The position numbers and the translations under genes were made by a program. The notes under the pieces are model-generated. The model was not told the DNA's origin and did no database searches. It saw nothing but the letters and a program-made list of their open reading frames with translations. A stretch of DNA of 64,000 nucleotides from Streptomyces phaeolivaceus (GTDB lineage Bacteria; Actinomycetota; Actinomycetes; Streptomycetales; Streptomycetaceae): positions 8,370,001-8,434,000 of the forward strand of contig NZ_CP045096.1 in NCBI RefSeq assembly GCF_009184865.1. The letters run 5' to 3'. Positions 7,387-57,715 of this stretch are shown in pieces. Position 1 is the first letter of the stretch; each line of letters starts with the position of its first letter.

Positions 7387-7407
7387 ACTCCTACGCTCCG
7401 TAGGAGT
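7387..7407. terminator. Hairpin directly after the GH43/XRE chimera
   Basis: ACTCCTACG (7387-7395) and CGTAGGAGT (7399-7407) form a perfect 9-base stem with a CTC loop that overlaps the last base of the chimera's TAA stop. It probably ends transcription coming from the ABC/GH43 operon side. Confidence 0.55.
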
Positions 7408-8882
7408 TATGAGATCAGGGGAACCCCGATGAGGTCGCCGATCTGACGAACCTTCGCCGTCGAGACCCTCGCCAGACGCTTGCCGATCACGCCCGGAAGG
7501 GCCTGGTGCCTGACCCACTCGGGCGCATCCATCCCGACTTCGACGAGTGTGTCTCCCGCCTTGTCGTACAGGCCCGTTGAAGCCTGAGCGAGAGCAACAT
7601 CGAGCTTGTATCGATTGCGAGCAATCTTCGACATGCCCTGGGGTAGCTTCTGCAGGTCTTCCTGGTTGGCGAGTTGCAGGGCGCGACCGTAGTCCTTCAA
7701 GGCAACGTGAATGCCAACTGCCTCTGTCTTGGCGGCTGTTGGACCGAAGGACGTTCCGTACAGCTTTTCGTCCCGACCGAGGCGCGCAGCTGCCGCATGG
7801 GCCTGTGACAGATAGTTGTCGGCGGACTCGCCGTCTTCCCGCCGGGATGCGGCCACGGCTGCCGAGATCATGTTTCGCCCGTACGCGATCAGTTGGGGCC
7901 GACTGCCGTCGCTGAAACTCGGCTCGATGGCCAGGGCCGCACGCTCTGCCACGGCCACGGCTCGGGGCAGCTTGGCACCGCGTAGGTAGACCCAGGACAG
8001 GGTGGAGTCGAGAAGTGCGCTGAGGACGGGGTTGCCGACTTCCCGAGCCAGGCTCTTCGCGGTTGTGAGCGCGCTGAGTGCAAGATCCCGTTGTCCGAAG
8101 CCGGTCGAGCAAGAGGCGACGACCCGGTAGGTGCTCGCCAGGATGGACCCCAACCGTTCACGCTCGGCGCCGGTCGCACTGGCGAACCTGACTTGCCCTT
8201 CCAGCATGACGCGCGACGCGTACGTACTCACCATGCCCGTGTCGCCGGCCCAGTAGGCGGACCACGCCCGATCGCGCGCTTCGGCGAGGACCAGGTAGTA
8301 CCAGCCGTCGTGCGGCAGGAGCTTCGGGCCCTCGATCAACCGGTCGTGCTGGAGGAGGAGATGGGTGTCGCCGAGGGGGCGGAGCGTCGAGCGGTCCAGC
8401 TCCGTCAGGACGATCCCGGCGAACCTCTCCCCGCCGGGCCGGTGGTCGCTCTGCATGTCGAGCAGCCAGAGCCGGCCCTCGTGATGGAACAGGGCCGGGT
8501 CGAAGCCATGGCTCACGACCCGGCGGGGCGCGGTCCAGTCGCCGTCGACCGCCGGGGCCGTGCTGACGTACGTGTCGAGGTCGAAGTAGCGCGTGCCGAC
8601 CGACCGCACGATCGTGTAGACCACCCAGAAACGGTCGCCGTCGCAGCTCAGTGACGGGGCCCGGACGCCGCCCGAGTCGGGGACCCCGGCGAGCGAGCCG
8701 CCCGGGGCCGCGCCGCGCACATGACCGGCGTACTCCCCGTGCGCGAGGTCCCTGGAGCGGTGGATCGGGATCGTCGGGAACCACTCGAAGGAGCTGGTCG
8801 CCACGTAGTACCACTCGCCCACCCTGATCAGGGACGGGTCGGGGGCGAAGCCGCGGATGACCGGGTTGCGGGCCACGGTCAC
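7407..8882 (-). CDS. Chimeric gene: GH43 N-terminal half fused in frame to XRE-TPR regulator C-terminal half
   Basis: Residues 1 to about 203 of this 491-residue frame are a GH43 glycosidase: APDPSL (base aspartate), GFDPALFHHEGRLWLLD (second aspartate) and LIEGPKLLPHDGWYYLVLAEA (acid glutamate). Blades 4-5 of the GH43 propeller are missing. From about residue 206 (RAWSAYWAGDTG onward, near base 8270) the sequence is the helical TPR-like tail of XRE regulators, without their helix-turn-helix. Base composition drops at the same point. The GTG start at 8882 overlaps the permease stop by 4 bases, so the gene was the last member of the sugar ABC operon. GH43 activity is probably lost; the fusion could still be translated. 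Confidence 0.85.
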   Translation of the reverse strand: MTVARNPVIRGFAPDPSLIRVGEWYYVATSSFEWFPTIPIHRSRDLAHGEYAGHVRGAAPGGSLAGVPDSGGVRAPSLSCDGDRFWVVYTIVRSVGTRYFDLDTYVSTAPAVDGDWTAPRRVVSHGFDPALFHHEGRLWLLDMQSDHRPGGERFAGIVLTELDRSTLRPLGDTHLLLQHDRLIEGPKLLPHDGWYYLVLAEARDRAWSAYWAGDTGMVSTYASRVMLEGQVRFASATGAERERLGSILASTYRVVASCSTGFGQRDLALSALTTAKSLAREVGNPVLSALLDSTLSWVYLRGAKLPRAVAVAERAALAIEPSFSDGSRPQLIAYGRNMISAAVAASRREDGESADNYLSQAHAAAARLGRDEKLYGTSFGPTAAKTEAVGIHVALKDYGRALQLANQEDLQKLPQGMSKIARNRYKLDVALAQASTGLYDKAGDTLVEVGMDAPEWVRHQALPGVIGKRLARVSTAKVRQIGDLIGVPLIS

Positions 8883-31368: not shown

Positions 31369-33072
31369 TCAGCTCAGCAGGTCGATCGTGTCGATCGCCG
31401 TGCCCGCGCTGAGATAGGAGGTCGACCCCGACCCGCTCACCACGTTGATCCGCAGCACGTTGTACTGACTCGTGTCCGTCAGCCAGGCGGACGCCGGGAC
31501 GCTGTAGGTGAACGTGTGGTTGTTGCCCCGGTAGGACCCGTTCGTCAGCGAGCGTGTGTTCGGCTGGGTGGGCGGGGAGGGGATCGCCGAGGTCCAGGCG
31601 TCGTTGACGACGACCTGCGGCCGGCCGTTGGCGTAGGCCGTCGTCACCCCGATGCGCAGGGTGTGCGCGGCGGCGGCCTGCGCGGCGGTCAGCCGGAAGT
31701 AGACGAGGAGACCGCTGTTCACGTCCTTCCAGAGGTAGCAGGGGAACGCCGAGGTCTCGGTGCCGCTGCCGATCACCACATTGCCGGTCCAGGCGGCGGC
31801 CCGGACGTCCGACGGATGCGCGTACGTCATCAGGTCGGCGTTCTTGAAACCGCTGGGCGTGCCGTTCCAGTCGTTGATCCGCCAGATCGCGCCCGCGTTC
31901 GACGGGTCGTTCGAGGACGGGATCGCGATCGAGTTCAGCGTCGTCGTCGCGCCCGCCGTGACCGTCACCGAGGTGGTGTACACCGCCAGCTCACCCTTGA
32001 ACACCGTGAGCGTGTACGTCCCCGGCAGCACCCCGGGGACGGAGTAGTTGCCGTCCGAGGCCCGCGCCGAACCCCAGTACTGCGCCGCCGAGTTGGCGAG
32101 GCCCACCGTGTACGCGTACGCCGTGTTGCGGCCGGTGATGCCGACGCCCGCGACCCGGCCCCGGCCGCTCGCCGAGACGTACCCGGACAGGCCGAGCGAG
32201 TCCGCCCACGAGGTGGTCAGCGTGCCCGGGAACAGCGCCGAGGAGGGCGCCCCGCCGTCCGTGAAGGCGATGACGTACGGGCCCTGGAGGCCGAACCGCT
32301 GCTCCTCGGTCTGGTTCTGGCCGTAGTACAGGATCTCGTAGAGGCCGCCGCCGTCCGCGCTCTGGTGGCGCAGCAGGGAGCGGTAGAACGGGCCGCCGGA
32401 GGCCTTCTCGTGGTTGCTGCGGACGACGTACAGACCGACGCTGCCCGTGGTCCAGCCGACGTAGTTGTAGTCGATCACCCGCAGCTTCGAGTAGTGCTTC
32501 GAGCGGGTCTGGCCGTTGGACTTGGCGAAGACGTCCGAGGCCTCGATGGTGGTGGGGGCGTAAGTGTAGGAATCGGGCTCGTCGTTGAGGAACAGGCCCG
32601 CCTTCACGCGCAGGATGAACCGGGTCGCCGAGACCGAGGTGTCGGCCTTGTTGGTCCACAGGTAGACGTTGTTCTCGCCGCTGCGGGCCGCGTAGTAGTG
32701 CCTCAGTGTGCCGTAGGTGACGGAGACGAGGATCGTCGAGCCGGACTGCGTGATGGTGACCGTGGAGCTGCCGAGGCCGGACTCGATGTGCGAGTTCATG
32801 CCGCCGTAGCCCTGGTACTCCGTGCCCCGGTAGACGAGCGAGGCCAGGTCGCCGTTGCTCTTCCTGACCTTGAACACCAGGTTCGCGCCGGTGTCGATGA
32901 CGTAGTGGGTGCCGTCGTCGGTGTAGCCGAAGGCCGCGGCGCGGGCGGTACCGGCCAGCGGCCCGGCGAGCGCGGCTCCGGTGACTCCGGCAGCCGTGGC
33001 GGCGGTGCCGACGACGAAGCCGCGGCGGCCCAGACGGGGTGTCGTGGCGGGTCTGTCGGTGGATTCGGACAT
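31369..33072 (-). CDS. Secreted rhamnogalacturonan lyase (PL4 type)
   Basis: The 567-residue protein has a Tat signal (GRRGFVVGTAATAAGVTGAA). The PL4 catalytic domain follows (DDGTHYVIDTGANLVFKVRK, SHIESGLGSSTVT, RSKHYSKLRVIDYNYVGWTT), then an FnIII-like carboxypeptidase-regulatory-type domain (GVLPGTYTLTVFKGELAVYT) and a C-terminal CBM-like domain (IWRINDWNGTPSGF). PL4 enzymes cut rhamnogalacturonan I by beta-elimination. It is divergent from the acetylesterase, its natural partner. The ATG at 33072 is used because the open frame above it is not signal-like. Confidence 0.88.
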   Translation of the reverse strand: MSESTDRPATTPRLGRRGFVVGTAATAAGVTGAALAGPLAGTARAAAFGYTDDGTHYVIDTGANLVFKVRKSNGDLASLVYRGTEYQGYGGMNSHIESGLGSSTVTITQSGSTILVSVTYGTLRHYYAARSGENNVYLWTNKADTSVSATRFILRVKAGLFLNDEPDSYTYAPTTIEASDVFAKSNGQTRSKHYSKLRVIDYNYVGWTTGSVGLYVVRSNHEKASGGPFYRSLLRHQSADGGGLYEILYYGQNQTEEQRFGLQGPYVIAFTDGGAPSSALFPGTLTTSWADSLGLSGYVSASGRGRVAGVGITGRNTAYAYTVGLANSAAQYWGSARASDGNYSVPGVLPGTYTLTVFKGELAVYTTSVTVTAGATTTLNSIAIPSSNDPSNAGAIWRINDWNGTPSGFKNADLMTYAHPSDVRAAAWTGNVVIGSGTETSAFPCYLWKDVNSGLLVYFRLTAAQAAAAHTLRIGVTTAYANGRPQVVVNDAWTSAIPSPPTQPNTRSLTNGSYRGNNHTFTYSVPASAWLTDTSQYNVLRINVVSGSGSTSYLSAGTAIDTIDLLS

Positions 33073-33136
33073 GGGGGTCCTCCTCGGGTGGTGTGGGGGG
33101 ACTGCGGGTGATTCGGAAGGGTGACAGTTGAATCGT

Positions 33137-33208
33137 TTTCGCGAAAGGGCTTTCGCCGTAGAGAAGTTGGCAATCATGTGAAAAACGCCGGACATCTAGA
33201 AAGCGCTT
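33137..33208. promoter_or_regulatory. Operator-like palindromes between the PL4 lyase and acetylesterase genes
   Basis: TTTCGCGAAA (33137-33146), a CGAAAG/CTTTCG inverted pair immediately after it, and AAGCGCTT (33201-33208) lie in the AT-richer divergent spacer. AAGCGCTT also occurs before the LacI gene at 5.1 kb. A LacI-family repressor probably acts here. Confidence 0.55.
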
Positions 33209-40714: not shown

Positions 40715-41794
40715 TCAGGCGTTCGGGTTCAGCCCGTTCGACAACCCCGTGTACGCCGGCTTCGCCCCGTAGCCCTCGTTGTACGGCAGGGCCGCCCCGT
40801 ACCCGCTGAACGTGCCCGGCACCCAGGAGTGCTTGTCCGTCAGACCCCACGCGGTGACACCGGCGCAGCGCGGGACACCGAGGCAGTTCTCGCTCGCCGT
40901 CTTGTAGTCCGTGGACTGCTGGGCCAGTTCGGCGCCGGAGGCGGGCAGCGGGATACGGATGTCCAGCTCGGTGAGGGAGACCTCGAGACCGAGGTCGGAG
41001 AAGCGCTTCAGGTTCGCCTTCATCGAGGCGGGCACCCCGCCGAGCACGAAGTGGGACTGGAAGCCGACCCCGTGCAACGGCACGCCCTGCGCGAGGAGTT
41101 GCCGTGCCAGCGCGTACAGGGCGTCGCTCTTCGCGTTGTCCGCCTCGATGTTGTAGTCGTTGATGTACAGCTTGGCGGCCGGGTCGGCCGTGTGCGCCCA
41201 GCGCAGGGCGCTCGCGATATGGGCGGTGCCGAGCTTGTCCTGCCACACCGAGGAACGCATCGAACCGTCCTCGTTGAACGCCTCGTTGACGACGTCCCAG
41301 GCGTAGATCCTCCCCTTGTACCGGCCCACGGTCGTGCTGATGTGGTTCTGCAGGATCGTGTTGAGCTGGGCCGCCGTGAAGTTCCCGTTCTTCAGCCAGG
41401 ACGGCAACTGCGCGTACCAGACCAGCGTGTGGCCGCGTACGCCCTGGTTGTGCGAGGTCGCGTGGTCGACCAGCCGGTCCGCCGCGCCCCAGTTGTACGA
41501 GCCCCGGTTCGGCTCCAGCGCGTCCCACTTCATCGCGTTCTCGGCGGTGACCGAGTTGAACTCCCGGTCCAGCACGGTGGTGTACGCAGCCTCGCTCCGG
41601 AGCGGCCCGTCGGCGACCGCCGCGCCGATCCGTACGCCCCGCGCGTCGGCGTGGCCGCGCAGGGTCGTCGCGGCCGAGGCGTCCGGGGCGAGTGGGGGGA
41701 GCGCCACGATTCCGGCGGCCAGCAGCGCGCCCACGACGAACAGGGGGCGCGGGACACGACGACGACGGCGGTGGTGGGGGGTGGTGTGCTGCAC
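40715..41794 (-). CDS. Secreted endo-1,4-beta-xylanase, GH10
   Basis: The 359-residue enzyme has an arginine-rich signal peptide and one GH10 barrel. Key motifs are FNSVTAENAMKWDAL, RGHTLVWYAQLPSWL, AWDVVNEAFNEDG (acid/base Glu171) and VSLTELDIRIP (nucleophile Glu276). It cuts xylan main chains outside the cell. There is no carbohydrate-binding module, unlike many Streptomyces GH10 enzymes. It follows the beta-galactosidase on the same strand but behind a strong hairpin, so it probably has its own promoter. Confidence 0.95.
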   Translation of the reverse strand: MQHTTPHHRRRRRVPRPLFVVGALLAAGIVALPPLAPDASAATTLRGHADARGVRIGAAVADGPLRSEAAYTTVLDREFNSVTAENAMKWDALEPNRGSYNWGAADRLVDHATSHNQGVRGHTLVWYAQLPSWLKNGNFTAAQLNTILQNHISTTVGRYKGRIYAWDVVNEAFNEDGSMRSSVWQDKLGTAHIASALRWAHTADPAAKLYINDYNIEADNAKSDALYALARQLLAQGVPLHGVGFQSHFVLGGVPASMKANLKRFSDLGLEVSLTELDIRIPLPASGAELAQQSTDYKTASENCLGVPRCAGVTAWGLTDKHSWVPGTFSGYGAALPYNEGYGAKPAYTGLSNGLNPNA

Positions 41795-41936: not shown

Positions 41937-45764
<3,828 letters not shown>

Positions 45765-52221: not shown

Positions 52222-52769
52222 ACGGGCCGGGTCCGATGCGCGTGGCCGACGCCACGGGAACCTGGCTACTCTGCCCGATGAAGGCTGGATTTCAGCGCTT
52301 CGCACGGTCACGACGAGGCCCCAGTCCTTCCGGCGGACCGCGCCAAGTGTCACCGCCCGCTCGCGCAGCAGGTACGTCACCGCCGACGCGACGTCCGCCA
52401 CCGGAGGACTCACCTCGTACCGGGCGAGCTTTCCGACGTACCGATCCAGCCATTGCCCACCTTCCCTCCGCGCGGCCCGGGACAACGCGACCTCCGCATC
52501 CCCATCGAGAAGGACCACGACCTGGCCGGGCGGACCGGCGCGAGCGATGTCCCCGGGTCGCCGGTGCCGGTCGTCCGGAAGGCCTCGGCCATCGGGACCG
52601 TCATGACCGCCGAGCCCTCCGACCCGCGCGAACCGGGTGGCGATCCGGTTCGCCCGCCGCCGCACGGCAACACGGTTGAGTGTGGTTTTTTGACGGTACG
52701 TCGGCTCCGACCGCTCGTGTGGGCCGATCGGCGTACCGTTCTGGGTGTCGAGCCAGAACGGAGTTGAGC
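52222..52769. other. Spacer with possible decayed kinase-like gene on the minus strand
   Basis: Between the dehydrogenase and the XRE gene (548 bases) there is no intact gene. On the minus strand, about 52540 to 52280, one frame reads QVVVLLDGDAEVALSRAARR and then WLDRYVGKLARYEVSPPVAD, which looks protein-like. The matching upstream part (VMTVPMAEAFRTTGTG) lies in another frame. This suggests a frameshifted remnant, perhaps of a nucleotide-kinase-like gene. There is no ribosome site and I am not sure of the family. The AT-rich stretch near 52675-52695 is the likely XRE promoter. Confidence 0.3.
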
Positions 52770-53975
52770 ATGCCGTACGCAAGTCGCCGGGAGGCCGGTG
52801 GAATCGGGGCGCGCATCGAGGAAGTGATGGCCCTGCGCGGTTACTCCCTCCGGGAACTGGGGCGTCGTGCCAGTGTCTCCCCGTCGATGCTCTCGCGCGT
52901 GATCAACGGGCAGCGGCAGGCCAGCCCTGCCATCGTCTCCGCCGTCGCCCGTGCCCTGTCCGTCAGCATCTCGGTCCTGCACGGTCAGCCCTACATCCAC
53001 CAGCTCCAGGCCGACCAGCTCGACCAGTTGATCGCACCGATCAGTGCCGCGCTGGACGACTGGGACATCCCGCTCGGCGAGGGCGACCCGCCGCCGCCGG
53101 ACCTCGCGACGCTGCAGGCTCAGGTGGCCGAACTGAAGGAACAGCGCGCCAAGGGAGAGTTCATCAGGATCGCCGCCGAACTGCCCAGCCTGATCGCCGA
53201 AGTCAACGCCTACTTCCTCCTCAACGACCAGCCGGGACGCCGCCGCGAGCAAGCCGCAGCCCTGCAGGCCGAGGTGTGCCGCACGATGTGCGTCGTCGGC
53301 CGCAACATCGGGTTCATGGATCTCGCCCGCCTGGCGCTGTCCCGGATGGCGGTCGCCGCGCCACTGTCCGGAGACCCACGACAGGTGGCCATCGAGCGCT
53401 GGTACCGCGCTCAACTGATGGCCGACGGCGCCCGGCACGATCGTGGGGTCCTCCTCGTCCGACAGGCGCTCAAGGACCTGGACGACGACGGTCAGCAGGC
53501 CACGAAAGCCGTGCGCGGCGCTCTGCACCTCAAGGCGGCGGTCCTGTCCAGCCGTGGCGGCGACACGGTCGGCGCGGACGGTTGGCTGGAAGCGGCCGGG
53601 GAGATCGCCGAGGAGACCGGCGAAACCCGTGACTACGGGCTCGTGTTCGGCCCGGTGAACTGCACGCTCCACACCATGTCCACCTCCAACGACCGCGACC
53701 GCCACGCCCGCGCCCTGGAGAAGGCCCGCAAGGTCCGCCTCCCCGACGACTACCCGGAGGCCCGCGCCGGTCACTACTGGGTGGACCGGGCCCGCGCGGA
53801 GACCTGGACGGCGAAGCACGGCGACGCGTTCGCCTCGCTGGCGCGGGCGCGCGAGGTGGCGCCGCAGCAGACCCGCTACCACCCGGGCGTGCACGAGACC
53901 GTGGCGACGCTGCTGCGGGCGCGGGCGAAGGCGCCGGGGGAGCTGCTGGAGTTCGCGAGCTGGTGCGGCGTGTAG
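52770..53975 (+). CDS. XRE-family regulator with TPR-like C-terminal domain
   Basis: The 401-residue protein begins MPYASRREAGGIGARIEEVM and has an XRE helix-turn-helix at about residues 20-60 (YSLRELGRRASVSPSMLSRV). A long helical tail with TPR character follows (RALEKARKVRLPDDYPEARA, GDAFASLARAREVAPQQTRY). GGAG precedes the ATG at 52770. Streptomyces often keep such regulators next to one or two very small genes, as here, in a pattern like the BldB/AbaA-type loci. Target and signal are unknown. It is an intact relative of the truncated XRE tail at 7.4-8.27 kb. Confidence 0.88.
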   Translation: MPYASRREAGGIGARIEEVMALRGYSLRELGRRASVSPSMLSRVINGQRQASPAIVSAVARALSVSISVLHGQPYIHQLQADQLDQLIAPISAALDDWDIPLGEGDPPPPDLATLQAQVAELKEQRAKGEFIRIAAELPSLIAEVNAYFLLNDQPGRRREQAAALQAEVCRTMCVVGRNIGFMDLARLALSRMAVAAPLSGDPRQVAIERWYRAQLMADGARHDRGVLLVRQALKDLDDDGQQATKAVRGALHLKAAVLSSRGGDTVGADGWLEAAGEIAEETGETRDYGLVFGPVNCTLHTMSTSNDRDRHARALEKARKVRLPDDYPEARAGHYWVDRARAETWTAKHGDAFASLARAREVAPQQTRYHPGVHETVATLLRARAKAPGELLEFASWCGV

Positions 53976-54644: not shown

Positions 54645-55970
54645 ATGGATGGCAGCCGCACCGCACTGGTGGAGGACCTGATGGAGAGGTTCCCGCACGT
54701 GCCACGGGAGGCCGTCTTCAAGGAGGACCTGCTCAGGGGCGGTCTGGCCTTCGACGCCTCCGCGCTGAGCGACAACGAGAAGGGCGACGTCAAGCCGAAG
54801 TCGTACTTCATCTTCTCCTTCGACCACGGCACCCTCCCCGAACTCGGCGAGGCCGCCCTGCGCCGCCCGCCGGAGGAGATCATCCTCACCGGCGGCCCGT
54901 ACGACCTGCGGCGCACGGTCGTCTCCGTACGGGTCAACCCGTCCTCGCCCTACCGGGTGGCCTCCGACGAGGACGGCCTGCTCGGCCTGTACCTCGACGG
55001 CAAGCGCATCGCGGACGTCGGCGTCCCGCCCATGCCCGAGTACTACAGGCACACCCTCTCCAACGGGAAGTCCGTGATGGAGGTGGCGCCCACCATCCAG
55101 TGGGGCTACCTGATCTACCTCACCGTCTTCCGCGTCTGCCAGTACTTCGGCGCGAAGGAGGAGTGCCAGTACTGCGACATCAACCACAACTGGCGCCAGC
55201 ACAAGGCGGCGGGCCGGCCGTACACGGGTGTCAAGGACGTCGACGAGGTCCTCGAAGCGCTGGAGATCATCGACCGGTACGACACCGCGAAGACGTCCAC
55301 CGCGTACACGCTCACCGGCGGCGCCATCACCAAGACGGTCTCGGGCCGTGACGAGGCCGACTTCTACGGCCACTACGCCAAGGCCATCGAGGAGCGCTTC
55401 CCGGACCGCTGGATCGGCAAGGTCGTCGCGCAGGCGCTGCCGCTGGACGACGTCAAGCGTTTCCACGACTACGGCGTGAAGATCTACCACCCCAACTACG
55501 AGGTGTGGGACGAGTACCTCTTCAAGATGTACTGCCCCGGCAAGGAGCGGTACGTCGGCCGCGACGAGTGGCACAAGCGGATCCTGGACTCGGCCGGTGT
55601 CTTCGGCGCGCGCAATGTGATCCCCAACTTCGTGGCGGGCGTGGAGATGGCCGAGCCGTTCGGGTTCAAGACGGTCGACGAGGCGATCGCCTCCACCACC
55701 GAGGGCCTGCGGTTCTTCATGTCCCAGGGCATCACGCCCCGCTTCACCACCTGGTGCCCGGAGCCCACCACCCCGCTCGGCAAGGCCAACCCGCAGGGCG
55801 CGCCGCTGGAGTACCACATCCGGCTGCTGCAGGCCTACCGCGCCACGATGGAGGAGTTCGGGCTGTCCTCACCGCCCGGATACGGCCCGCCCGGACCCGG
55901 CAACGCCGTCTTCTCCGTCAGCTCCTTCATGGACAGCCTCCCGGCCGCCGAGGAGGTTCCCGCCCAGTAA
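54645..55970 (+). CDS. Radical-SAM-like protein with atypical cysteine cluster
   Basis: The 441-residue protein starts MDGSRTALVEDLMERFPHVP, with GAGGAG 8 bases before the ATG. The presumed iron-sulfur cluster site is VCQYFGAKEECQYCDINHNW, a C-x8-C-x2-C pattern rather than the classical C-x3-C-x2-C. A TIM-barrel-like pattern follows (TSTAYTLTGGAITKTVSGRD, GVKIYHPNYEVWDEYLF, NVIPNFVAGVEMAEPFGF, GITPRFTTWCPEPTTPLG). Streptomyces have a conserved family of this kind annotated as radical SAM proteins, function unknown. No precursor peptide is obvious nearby. Confidence 0.75.
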   Translation: MDGSRTALVEDLMERFPHVPREAVFKEDLLRGGLAFDASALSDNEKGDVKPKSYFIFSFDHGTLPELGEAALRRPPEEIILTGGPYDLRRTVVSVRVNPSSPYRVASDEDGLLGLYLDGKRIADVGVPPMPEYYRHTLSNGKSVMEVAPTIQWGYLIYLTVFRVCQYFGAKEECQYCDINHNWRQHKAAGRPYTGVKDVDEVLEALEIIDRYDTAKTSTAYTLTGGAITKTVSGRDEADFYGHYAKAIEERFPDRWIGKVVAQALPLDDVKRFHDYGVKIYHPNYEVWDEYLFKMYCPGKERYVGRDEWHKRILDSAGVFGARNVIPNFVAGVEMAEPFGFKTVDEAIASTTEGLRFFMSQGITPRFTTWCPEPTTPLGKANPQGAPLEYHIRLLQAYRATMEEFGLSSPPGYGPPGPGNAVFSVSSFMDSLPAAEEVPAQ

Positions 55971-56185
55971 CTCCTGTGGCGGTTGAGTCGATCGGGATCG
56001 GCGTACGTACAACTCCATAGTGTGTGACCGTTGGTAACCGCATTTGAAGACGCGGCTTGTCAGTTGTGTGGGAAGCGTGAAAAGCTCTGGGCCACTGCAA
56101 GATGGTCCCCTTAACTCCCTTGAATCAGAGGGTAGTTGACCATTTTTGCGAAATTCCCCCCTCGCTCTGTGGATGCAGGAGACCC
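55971..56185. promoter_or_regulatory. Promoter region before the sigma-like CBM2 gene
   Basis: This 215-base spacer is AT-richer around 56020-56160 and includes TTGGTAACCGCATTTGAAGA and TTGACCATTTTTGCGAAATT. The second is a plausible -35 start (TTGACC). No gene or clear terminator is seen. Confidence 0.35.
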
Positions 56186-57715
56186 ATGCCCGACCTGCCG
56201 AAGCCCCAGGACGCCGCCGAGGCCGCGCTGTTCTCGGAGTGCTGGGACGCGGTCCTGTCGTACGCCGACCTGTGCACGTCCGGTTCGACCGCGGCCACCC
56301 AACTGGCCACCGAGGCCTTCACGAACGGCATGCACGAGGCGCACGCCCTGGAATTCGAGGCAGTCGCGGAGCGCGGCGTCGGACGGCGCGCTCCGCGACT
56401 GCCTCGAATACCGTTCCTCCTGACCTGGGTCAGGACCACCGCCGCGGCCTGGGAGACCAACGGCCAGGGCCACCGCCTCGACCCCGAACTGCGGCTGTGG
56501 CTCAACTCGGACAAGGCCGCCCGGTACACCGGCCCGCCGCTGCACCGCCCCCTCGCCCTGCGCGCCCTGCGCGACATGCAGGAACCCGACGCGGCCCTGC
56601 TGTGGCTGGCCGAGGTCGAATCGCTGCCGCTGGGCTCGGTGGCCCGCCGGCTCGGCCTCGACCCGGTGGTCGCCAGGACCGAACTCGACCAGATCCGGGC
56701 GCTGTTCAGGGACCGGTGCCACCGCAGCCAACTCGACGCGCCCATGAACCCCGACTGCCGCGGCTACGCCCGGCTGCTGGACGCGGTCACCCGCTCACCC
56801 GGCACCGACACCCCCGAGGACCTCTCGCGGCACCTCGCCACCTGTGTGGAGTGCGCCGAGGCCGCGGCCTGCCTCGGTCTGCACGGCGGCGGACTGCCCG
56901 CCGCGCTCGCCAGCGGGGTGATCGGCTGGAGCGGACTCGCCTACCTGGAGCGCCGCCGCCGCGCCGCCGACGCCGGGCTGCTCCCCGGGCGCGCGGACTC
57001 CACCGGCACCGATCGGGGACTCTCGCCGGGCAAGGAACAGCGGCCCCGGTTCGGCCGCAACGGCCTGCTCGCCGGAGCCGGACTCGTCTCCGTACTGGCC
57101 CTCGCCGTCTCCCTCATGCCCTTCGGTGAGGACGACACCGTCACCGACGCGTCCGCCGGAGATACCTCGGTGGTGCAGCAGGACCCGAGGTTCCCGGTCA
57201 CCGGATCCCCGTCCGGCGGCGACTCCGAACTGCAGAGCACGACACGGCCCCAGGAGACCGGTTCCGACGCCGACGAGGGCGAGGCCGACAAGGACGGCAA
57301 GGGCGACGGCAACACCAACGAGGAGCCCCAGGGCGACGCCTCGACACCGGCCCGCGTCAGCCATGAGCCCGTCGACCCCGGCAAGTCCTCCGACGCCACC
57401 TGCCACGTCCGCTACCAGATCGTCAACGAGTGGCCCGGCGGCTTCCAGGCGACCGTCACCGTCACCTCCGCCAAGGCCGTCGACGGCTGGCGCGTCGGCT
57501 GGACCCACGCCGCCGACCAGCGCGTCACCCAGATGTGGGACGGCACCTTCGACCAGGACGGCTCCAAGGTCACCGTCACCGCCGCCGACTACAACAAGAC
57601 CGTCGCCGCGGGCGGCACCTTCGGCGTCGGCTTCCTCGGCATCTGGCAGGGCTTCGACAACCCCGACCCCGTCGACTTCACCCTGAACGGGCGCTCCTGC
57701 GAGCAGGCGGACTGA
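56186..57715 (+). CDS. Membrane-anchored sigma-factor-like protein with extracellular CBM2 domain
   Basis: The 509-residue protein reads in order as follows. Residues about 10-60 resemble ECF sigma region 2 (FSECWDAVLSYADLCTSGST). Residues 135-178 resemble region 4 (ALLWLAEVESLPLGSVARRL then ARTELDQIRALFRDRC). Residues 216-223 are HLATCVEC, an H-x3-C-x2-C zinc motif as in ZAS anti-sigma factors. One membrane helix lies at 293-311. An acidic Gly/Asp/Glu linker then leads to a C-terminal CBM2 cellulose-binding domain (404-506, Cys406/Cys505 probably paired). It would link an outside polysaccharide signal to transcription. GGAG precedes the ATG at 56186. Confidence 0.75.
   Translation: MPDLPKPQDAAEAALFSECWDAVLSYADLCTSGSTAATQLATEAFTNGMHEAHALEFEAVAERGVGRRAPRLPRIPFLLTWVRTTAAAWETNGQGHRLDPELRLWLNSDKAARYTGPPLHRPLALRALRDMQEPDAALLWLAEVESLPLGSVARRLGLDPVVARTELDQIRALFRDRCHRSQLDAPMNPDCRGYARLLDAVTRSPGTDTPEDLSRHLATCVECAEAAACLGLHGGGLPAALASGVIGWSGLAYLERRRRAADAGLLPGRADSTGTDRGLSPGKEQRPRFGRNGLLAGAGLVSVLALAVSLMPFGEDDTVTDASAGDTSVVQQDPRFPVTGSPSGGDSELQSTTRPQETGSDADEGEADKDGKGDGNTNEEPQGDASTPARVSHEPVDPGKSSDATCHVRYQIVNEWPGGFQATVTVTSAKAVDGWRVGWTHAADQRVTQMWDGTFDQDGSKVTVTAADYNKTVAAGGTFGVGFLGIWQGFDNPDPVDFTLNGRSCEQAD
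56353..56409. repeat. Perfect 21-base inverted repeat inside the sigma-like gene
   Basis: Bases 56353-56373 (ATTCGAGGCAGTCGCGGAGC then G) and 56389-56409 are exact reverse complements separated by 15 bases. The arms fall in codons for EFEAVAERG and PRLPRIP. Such a stem within a coding region is exceptional in length. Confidence 0.9.

Follow-up and report, generated by a model that had tools for sequence, protein, structure and literature searches.

A fused sigma-like/anti-sigma membrane protein with an extracellular CBM2 in Streptomyces phaeolivaceus, probably a sigma look-alike and not a working sigma factor

Proteins that join an extracytoplasmic function (ECF) sigma factor, an anti-sigma domain, and a carbohydrate-binding tail have been published as groups ECF52 and ECF53 (PMC5826349; PMC10766802; PMC8999054); the original prediction for the locus described here had noted that such fusions occur in Actinobacteria. 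The ECF52 protein SCO4117 of Streptomyces coelicolor combines in one chain an ECF sigma domain, a HxxxCxxC zinc domain, a membrane helix, and an extracellular carbohydrate-binding domain. Such receptors have been named likely polysaccharide sensors. The characterized member, SCO4117, affects development, and for ECF52 it has been proposed that sugar binding sets the sigma part free (PMC5826349). Here we analyze a gene of the same design in a 64,000-nucleotide stretch of the Streptomyces phaeolivaceus genome (the window; contig NZ_CP045096.1, positions 8,370,001 to 8,434,000), and for its product, called the receptor protein below, we computed the architecture, the descent, the loss of contact residues, and the purifying selection on the cytoplasmic module. 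The architecture is already on record. No description of the CBM2 type, of the lost sigma residues, of a clade of lectin receptors with a pseudo-sigma, or of sugar-gated pseudo-sigma signalling was found in the open-licence literature searched.

The sigma half of the receptor protein is probably too eroded to run transcription, and the protein would then signal as a sigma look-alike and not through release of a working sigma. The original prediction of a cellulose receptor is supported for the fused ECF-sigma-like/anti-sigma/transmembrane/CBM2 chain with its seemingly intact binding face, but not for the freed sigma factor, as the clade has lost residues on which a released sigma part would depend. 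Because the kept parts are those that would join the sigma-like and anti-sigma domains and could pass a signal across the membrane, and the lost parts are the polymerase and promoter contacts, we tentatively read the protein as a pseudo-sigma bound to the anti-sigma domain of the same chain, with a partner-switching output; its ligand, activation step, and output are presumed.

Six further matches to the sigma/anti-sigma module were found in the same genome. One of them (L025) carries Sigma70_r2, zf-HC2, and NPCBM and so has the SCO4117 architecture; the 31 rows called ECF52-like below are the best matches to it, all domains having been checked in L025 only. Another (L026) is a fused sigma, zinc-domain, and membrane-helix protein, for which, with its relatives, "ECF53-like" is our working label and not an assignment from ECF models. 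L022 and L024 have ricin-B tails by Pfam, L023 has a ricin-like tail by eye, and the match to L027, which lies in a short open frame, is weak.

The original prediction had also seen sigma-like regions 2 and 4. This is borne out by homology through intermediates and by fold, but not by any Pfam or NCBIfam sigma match in the receptor protein itself. A Pfam scan recognized CBM2 as its sole domain, and residues 1-262 matched no NCBIfam family at E<=1, the full protein giving only one CBM2-type family and one chance family. TIGR02937, the model by which SCO4117 was recognized as ECF, did not match the receptor protein, while L025 scores 53.5 bits against a cut-off of 42.9. A profile of 26 close orthologues alone found no relative in PDB at E<=10, and a profile with ricin paralogues added, without ECF52-like rows, gave weak matches only (SigR, E 0.035; SigH, E 0.051); therefore the sigma relation is not shown by sequence alone, and intermediates or fold are needed. 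Some relatives do trigger weak models: TIGR02937 on 5 of 31 (best 6e-5) and antisigmaE on 9 of 31; among the rows of orthologues and ricin paralogues, Pfam Sigma70_r4_2 matched 5 of 31 (best 6.7e-4) and MarR-type models matched 4. The bridging paralogues, group X, match both L025 (best E 1e-30) and the receptor protein (best E 7e-34). In hhalign the receptor family aligned with the ECF52-like rows at a probability of 99.1 over 233 columns, i.e., homology across the whole cytoplasmic module, and with the more distant ECF53-like fusions at 93.3.

The AlphaFold2 (AF2) model of the module (predicted local distance difference test, pLDDT, 93.1; predicted template modelling score, pTM, 0.89) contains the sigma-2 and sigma-4 folds. 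The first 12 Foldseek rows and the first 22 VIA rows are all sigma factors, mostly ECF, and the structural matches listed also include PhyR chains. Sigmas bound to an anti-sigma superpose on the model with a smaller overall root-mean-square deviation (12.9-15.8) than M. tuberculosis sigmas bound to polymerase (26.5-28.8). As a control, the SCO4117-like module was modelled with pLDDT 61 and pTM 0.43 and was not used further. Taken together, the anatomy of the receptor protein and its descent from an ECF52-type fused sigma/anti-sigma protein are very likely. The sigma-4-like helix-turn-helix is structurally kept (59 residues superpose on region 4 of M. tuberculosis SigE at 1.1 A), as would suit a membrane-tethered one-component DNA-binding regulator that works without RNA polymerase; with a mean net charge of -2 on the recognition helix, we hold this to be most unlikely.

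The residues by which a sigma factor contacts core polymerase and promoter were compared over seven groups (Table 1), residue numbers being mapped between proteins by our own alignment and by the RpoE numbering. The 81 orthologues are the window plus 80 loci kept out of 293 relatives found. The DAED motif of region 2.2 provides the negative charges that bind beta' (PMC8999054, section 3.4). Among the 81 CBM2 orthologues, none is acidic at position 38 of this contact, 9 are at position 39, and 3 at position 36. The -10 pocket is formed in M. tuberculosis SigH by W81, I85, and N88, and alanine at W81 or I85 leaves the protein severely defective (PMC6411747). This pocket is lost in most CBM2 orthologues. 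A basic -35 recognition helix was not found in them either, and RpoE R176, which we take to be a -35 contact, has no basic equivalent in any of the 81; in the receptor protein the -35 arginine equivalents 166 and 169 are lost and 171 is kept. RpoE R178, the equivalent of which is basic throughout the orthologues, is a contact to the anti-sigma domain predicted by co-evolution in several ECF groups (PMC7406223). Nearly every orthologue lacks the acidic contact of DAED type, the -10 pocket, and the basic -35 helix, and ordinary sigma activity has likely been lost in the CBM2 receptor. One genome offers a built-in comparison set here, in which the SCO4117-like and ECF53-like fusions look able to act as sigmas and the CBM2 and ricin types do not. 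We would be cautious in naming such genes sigma factors on fold alone.

Table 1. Contact residues of sigma factors in the receptor protein family and in comparison groups (number of sequences with the residue type; last line, mean net charge).
Position and residue type	Canonical own-genome ECFs (19)	ECF52-like (31)	ECF53-like (6)	X (11)	Ricin R1 (27)	CBM2 orthologues (81)	Distant orthologues (7)
Position 38, acidic	18	30	6	0	2	0	0
Position 39, acidic	19	30	6	0	0	9	0
SigH W81 equivalent, aromatic	19	30	6	0	0	17	0
SigH I85 equivalent, I/V/L	19	2	0	0	0	1	0
SigH N88 equivalent, N/R/H/K	19	31	6	11	2	4	5
RpoE R176 equivalent, basic	13	31	6	11	0	0	5
RpoE R178 equivalent, basic	10	30	6	10	27	81	7
-35 recognition helix, mean net charge	+3.74	+1.94	+2.5	-0.91	-1.33	-1.98	-2.0

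Three observations weigh against such a loss. E43, which we take to be the equivalent of a sigma-70 core-contact residue, is acidic in 76 of the 81 orthologues, and R169 is kept in 5 of the 7 distant ones. The ECF52-like rows themselves deviate from the canonical residues, with an I85 equivalent in 2/31 and an R173 equivalent in 0/31, though SCO4117 behaves genetically as a sigma (PMC5826349). Together with the homology across the whole module, R171 in 81/81, and the effects that a published SCO4117 truncation has of its own (PMC5826349), these points would fit a true ECF sigma with unusual contacts, in which polysaccharide leads to proteolysis and the sigma leaves the membrane to drive a regulon, as proposed for SCO4117. 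We regard this as unlikely, given that the acid at position 38 and the -35 arginine are absent from all 81 orthologues, that a -10 pocket aromatic remains in 17, and that the recognition helix is negative. Moreover, a 32-base pattern from the conserved upstream block, searched with <=3 mismatches, had one match in the genome, the receptor gene itself, and no second copy, though a sigma consensus would be shorter. Binding to core polymerase would be a simple discriminator between release and partner-switch models.

The same gap, an acidic region 2.2 contact replaced by neutral residues, occurs in the ECF43 sigmas of the EcfP/EcfK system, which without DAED stay silent until phosphorylated (PMC8999054, section 3.4). 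The receptor protein could likewise be an intrinsically silent sigma activated by Ser/Thr phosphorylation that replaces the acidic motif; Ser or Thr stands at position 38 in 44 of the 81 orthologues and Ser34 in 75, and SCO4117 is reported to be phosphorylated at Ser15 and Thr231 (PMC5826349). However, the Ser/Thr is not conserved: neither is found at position 38 in 37 of the 81, nor in any of the seven distant orthologues, and at position 39 the count is 0/81. ECF43 members are kinase-linked true sigmas. In the receptor family a phospho-site is not conserved, none of the tested neighbours is a kinase gene, and the DNA-facing residues have been lost as well, which makes activation of this kind highly unlikely.

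The cytoplasmic domains are under tighter constraint than the part outside the cell. The mean frequency of the most common residue over the 81 rows is 0.84-0.96 in the cytoplasmic domains, 0.72 in CBM2, 0.52 in the inner linker, and 0.41 in the outer linker. The median ratio of nonsynonymous to synonymous substitution (dN/dS; NG86, 79-89 of the 91 pairs formed by the window and the 13 named relatives closest to it) is 0.31 for the sigma-2-like domain, 0.27 for the sigma-4-like domain, 0.22 for the zinc domain, 0.21 for the inner linker, 0.66 for the outer linker, and 0.77 for CBM2, absolute values being unsure owing to high G+C. Low dN/dS and tight conservation indicate that the cytoplasmic domains are not decaying but are kept for something other than sigma work. 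An alternative is that the protein is a cell-surface cellulose adhesin with the cytoplasmic module as mere anchor, which would agree with a long variable stalk bearing a CBM2 whose aromatics are conserved, with the finding that none of the conserved genes tested within 8 kb is regulatory, and with one further copy (L016) without a zinc domain. Yet an anchor predicts the reverse of the observed pattern, in which the cytoplasmic domains are the most conserved and under the stronger purifying selection, and we find the adhesin quite unlikely.

In the reading that we favor, the pseudo-sigma would lie folded inside the cell against its own zinc anti-sigma domain, without polymerase or promoter contacts, while CBM2 outside meets cellulose or a similar beta-glucan. 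Binding outside would most likely loosen the pseudo-sigma from the anti-sigma domain, via tension or cleavage of the linker, and the nearly invariant juxtamembrane stretch (residues 240-260) could carry the signal through the membrane. One of the two exposed halves could then switch partners, engaging another of the cell's sigmas or anti-sigmas. This would resemble the alphaproteobacterial anti-anti-sigma PhyR, the sigma-like domain of which mimics a sigma toward the anti-sigma (PMC8999054). PhyR itself is a response regulator and targets NepR in trans, whereas the module of the receptor is membrane-bound and fused to its own zinc domain and CBM2. RsgI proteins have extracellular binding modules, and in RsgI/SigI, unlike in the receptor, a working sigma and its anti-sigma are two proteins without fusion. 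In these biomass sensors of cellulosomal clostridia, as proposed here, polysaccharide sensing is coupled to a membrane anti-sigma (PMC10766802). If the reading is true, such receptors can signal without transcribing, having kept the receptor and the sigma fold and lost the polymerase and promoter contacts.

By sequence, the receptor protein falls together with ricin-lectin paralogues in a derived clade. A quick tree built from 70 sequences with the DAED columns left out unites the CBM2, X, and ricin groups with L023 and L102 in a single clade (SH-aLRT 94, not starred) on a separate branch beside the ECF52-like rows and L099; L102, one of the 31 ECF52-like rows, is thus placed in the derived clade. 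At least three changes of acidity at position 38 are needed on this tree. The receptor further differs from SCO4117 in carrying CBM2 instead of NPCBM, and its outer linker has 9% proline against 38% in L025 (orthologue median 16%). From the ECF53-type fusions, with which it shares a fused sigma, zinc domain, and membrane helix, it differs in that L026 has a sigma-2 recognized by Pfam and a Val/Pro-rich tail without CBM2, and in that the acidic contact is kept in 6/6 ECF53-like rows. It is possible, though on balance doubtful, that Streptomyces has an entire clade of lectin receptors in the membrane, with CBM2 or a ricin-type domain outside, in which external polysaccharide would move a pseudo-sigma off the anti-sigma domain of its chain and onto a trans partner, so that it would serve as a sugar-gated membrane-bound anti-anti-sigma or as a sigma sponge. 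Of the 246 genomes of the genus, 102 contain the CBM2-type gene, each in a single copy (E<=1e-60). Seven divergent orthologues (50-61% identity) have the same layout by eye, and outside the genus none of the matches listed covered the N-terminal part. Of the 80 loci, 79 are titled Streptomyces and one Actinobacteria bacterium, in agreement with the restriction of ECF52 to Actinobacteria.

Among the paralogues, the X and R1 ricin-lectin genes (L088-L097, L029-L054) may belong to one island: the distance between them is about 11-22 kb in nine genomes (G007, G009, G011, G013, G014, G016, G020, G022, G026), but about 0.6 Mb in G064. L023 (L224 1164-4106) encodes 980 aa with a very long Gly/Ala-rich stretch ahead of the membrane helix. 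The sigma gene just upstream of it (L125), whose sigma-2 match ends about 0.7 kb before the L023 start, looks by eye like a SigB/SigF-type gene and not ECF.

The reading frame originally given for the gene is right (Table 2). Its start is preceded by a conserved ribosome site GCAGG.GAC, an alternative in-frame ATG at 56102 is not conserved, and the alignment begins at residue 1 in 79 of 80 named orthologues (residue 8 in L188). The anti-sigma-type motif (H216-x3-C220-x2-C223) and a hydrophobic helix after residue 230 (by hydropathy), both previously noted, recur in 81/81 orthologues, window included. In the AF2 model the domain has four helices (189-203, 211-219, 221-229, and 236-246), and Hx3Cx2C spans the second and the third of them, as in class I zinc anti-sigmas; pfam13490, the zinc anti-sigma model, gave no match in the receptor protein despite the motif. 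The residues flanking the membrane helix, basic ahead of it and acidic beyond it, put the N-terminal part on the cytoplasmic side. The CBM2 expected outside is matched by PF00553 (E 5.6e-25; 88.1 bits against a cut-off of 24), with C406, W416, W451, and Y469 in 81/81 and C505 in 80/81 orthologues; the two cysteines fit the CBM2 disulfide. W416, W451, and Y469 are presumably the cellulose-binding face, as in Cex CBM2a, and from its residues this face looks intact. In the hypervariable outer linker a PQG (57326-57334) stands out, with Q and G in 81/81 and P in 76/81; the invariant QG, in a stalk that otherwise hardly aligns, is a possible cleavage, protease, or docking site.

Table 2. Coordinates of the receptor gene, its parts, and other features in the window.
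Feature	Position	Strand	Residues	Remarks
Whole gene, sigma-like/anti-sigma/membrane/CBM2 receptor	56186..57715	+	509 aa	ATG start at 56186
Sigma-2-like domain	56207..56485	+	8-100	AF2 model; structural matches to ECF sigma-2; hhalign to ECF52-like rows
Place of DAED core-polymerase contact	56291..56302	+	36-39	here AATQ
Unusually conserved linker and sigma-4-like domain	56486..56737	+	101-184	
Zinc anti-sigma domain	56738..56881	+	185-232	H-x3-C-x2-C at 56831-56854
Nearly invariant juxtamembrane stretch	56903..56965	+	240-260	majority sequence ALAGGVIGWGGLAYLERRRRA
Single transmembrane helix	57062..57118	+	293-311	hydropathy; basic side in, acidic side out
Variable extracytoplasmic linker	57125..57397	+	314-404	invariant QG (382-383)
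CBM2	57401..57700	+	406-505	2 conserved cysteines and 3 conserved aromatics
Conserved upstream block GCTTGTCAGTTGTG...CGTGAAAAGCTC, candidate promoter or operator	56055..56087	+		14-mer exact in 77/81
Inverted repeat AACTC(N15-16)(G/T)AGTTG upstream of start	56113..56138	+		in 60/81
PL4	31369-33195			
GH10	40715-41794			
GH2	41937-44846			
GH43	7407-8882			

The conserved upstream block lies 107-149 bases upstream of the gene. Its 14-mer was not found with <=2 substitutions in the stretches of the seven distant orthologues, Rfam gave no match in the leader, and a CebR box (<=2 mismatches) had 0 matches in the window against 0.48 expected. Among the genes tested within 8 kb, a radical SAM gene (54645-55967, variant type) and rsgA are the conserved neighbours, and no regulatory or kinase gene is; a regulator gene at 52680-53975 had a match in 0/80 loci at the threshold used. 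In 79 of 80 loci the radical SAM gene immediately precedes the receptor gene (median identity 93%, at a median of 270 bases), and in a raw tally of 41 genomes, uncorrected for kinship, it is present in 16 of 17 genomes with the receptor and in 6 of 24 without. rsgA is near the receptor in 59 of 80 loci, some of which end early. Plant-polymer genes are indeed present in the window (PL4, GH10, GH2, and GH43), as the original prediction had it, but 11-49 kb upstream and not beside the receptor gene, and linkage to them found no support within 8 kb of the orthologues. The cellulose or xylan regulon predicted with them is supported neither by the conserved neighbours within 8 kb nor by a second copy of the upstream block, although neither test excludes a regulon.

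Two further features were observed. In the orthologue L016 (G003:C1) the whole zinc domain is gone and the sigma-like part, membrane helix, and CBM2 are kept. Inside the coding sequence of the window, positions 56350-56412 form a 31-base inverted repeat with a 1-base spacer and arms that are 94% complementary, which by eye is missing from ten close relatives; its left arm looks as if copied from the right arm, as in a template-switch mutation that keeps the frame.
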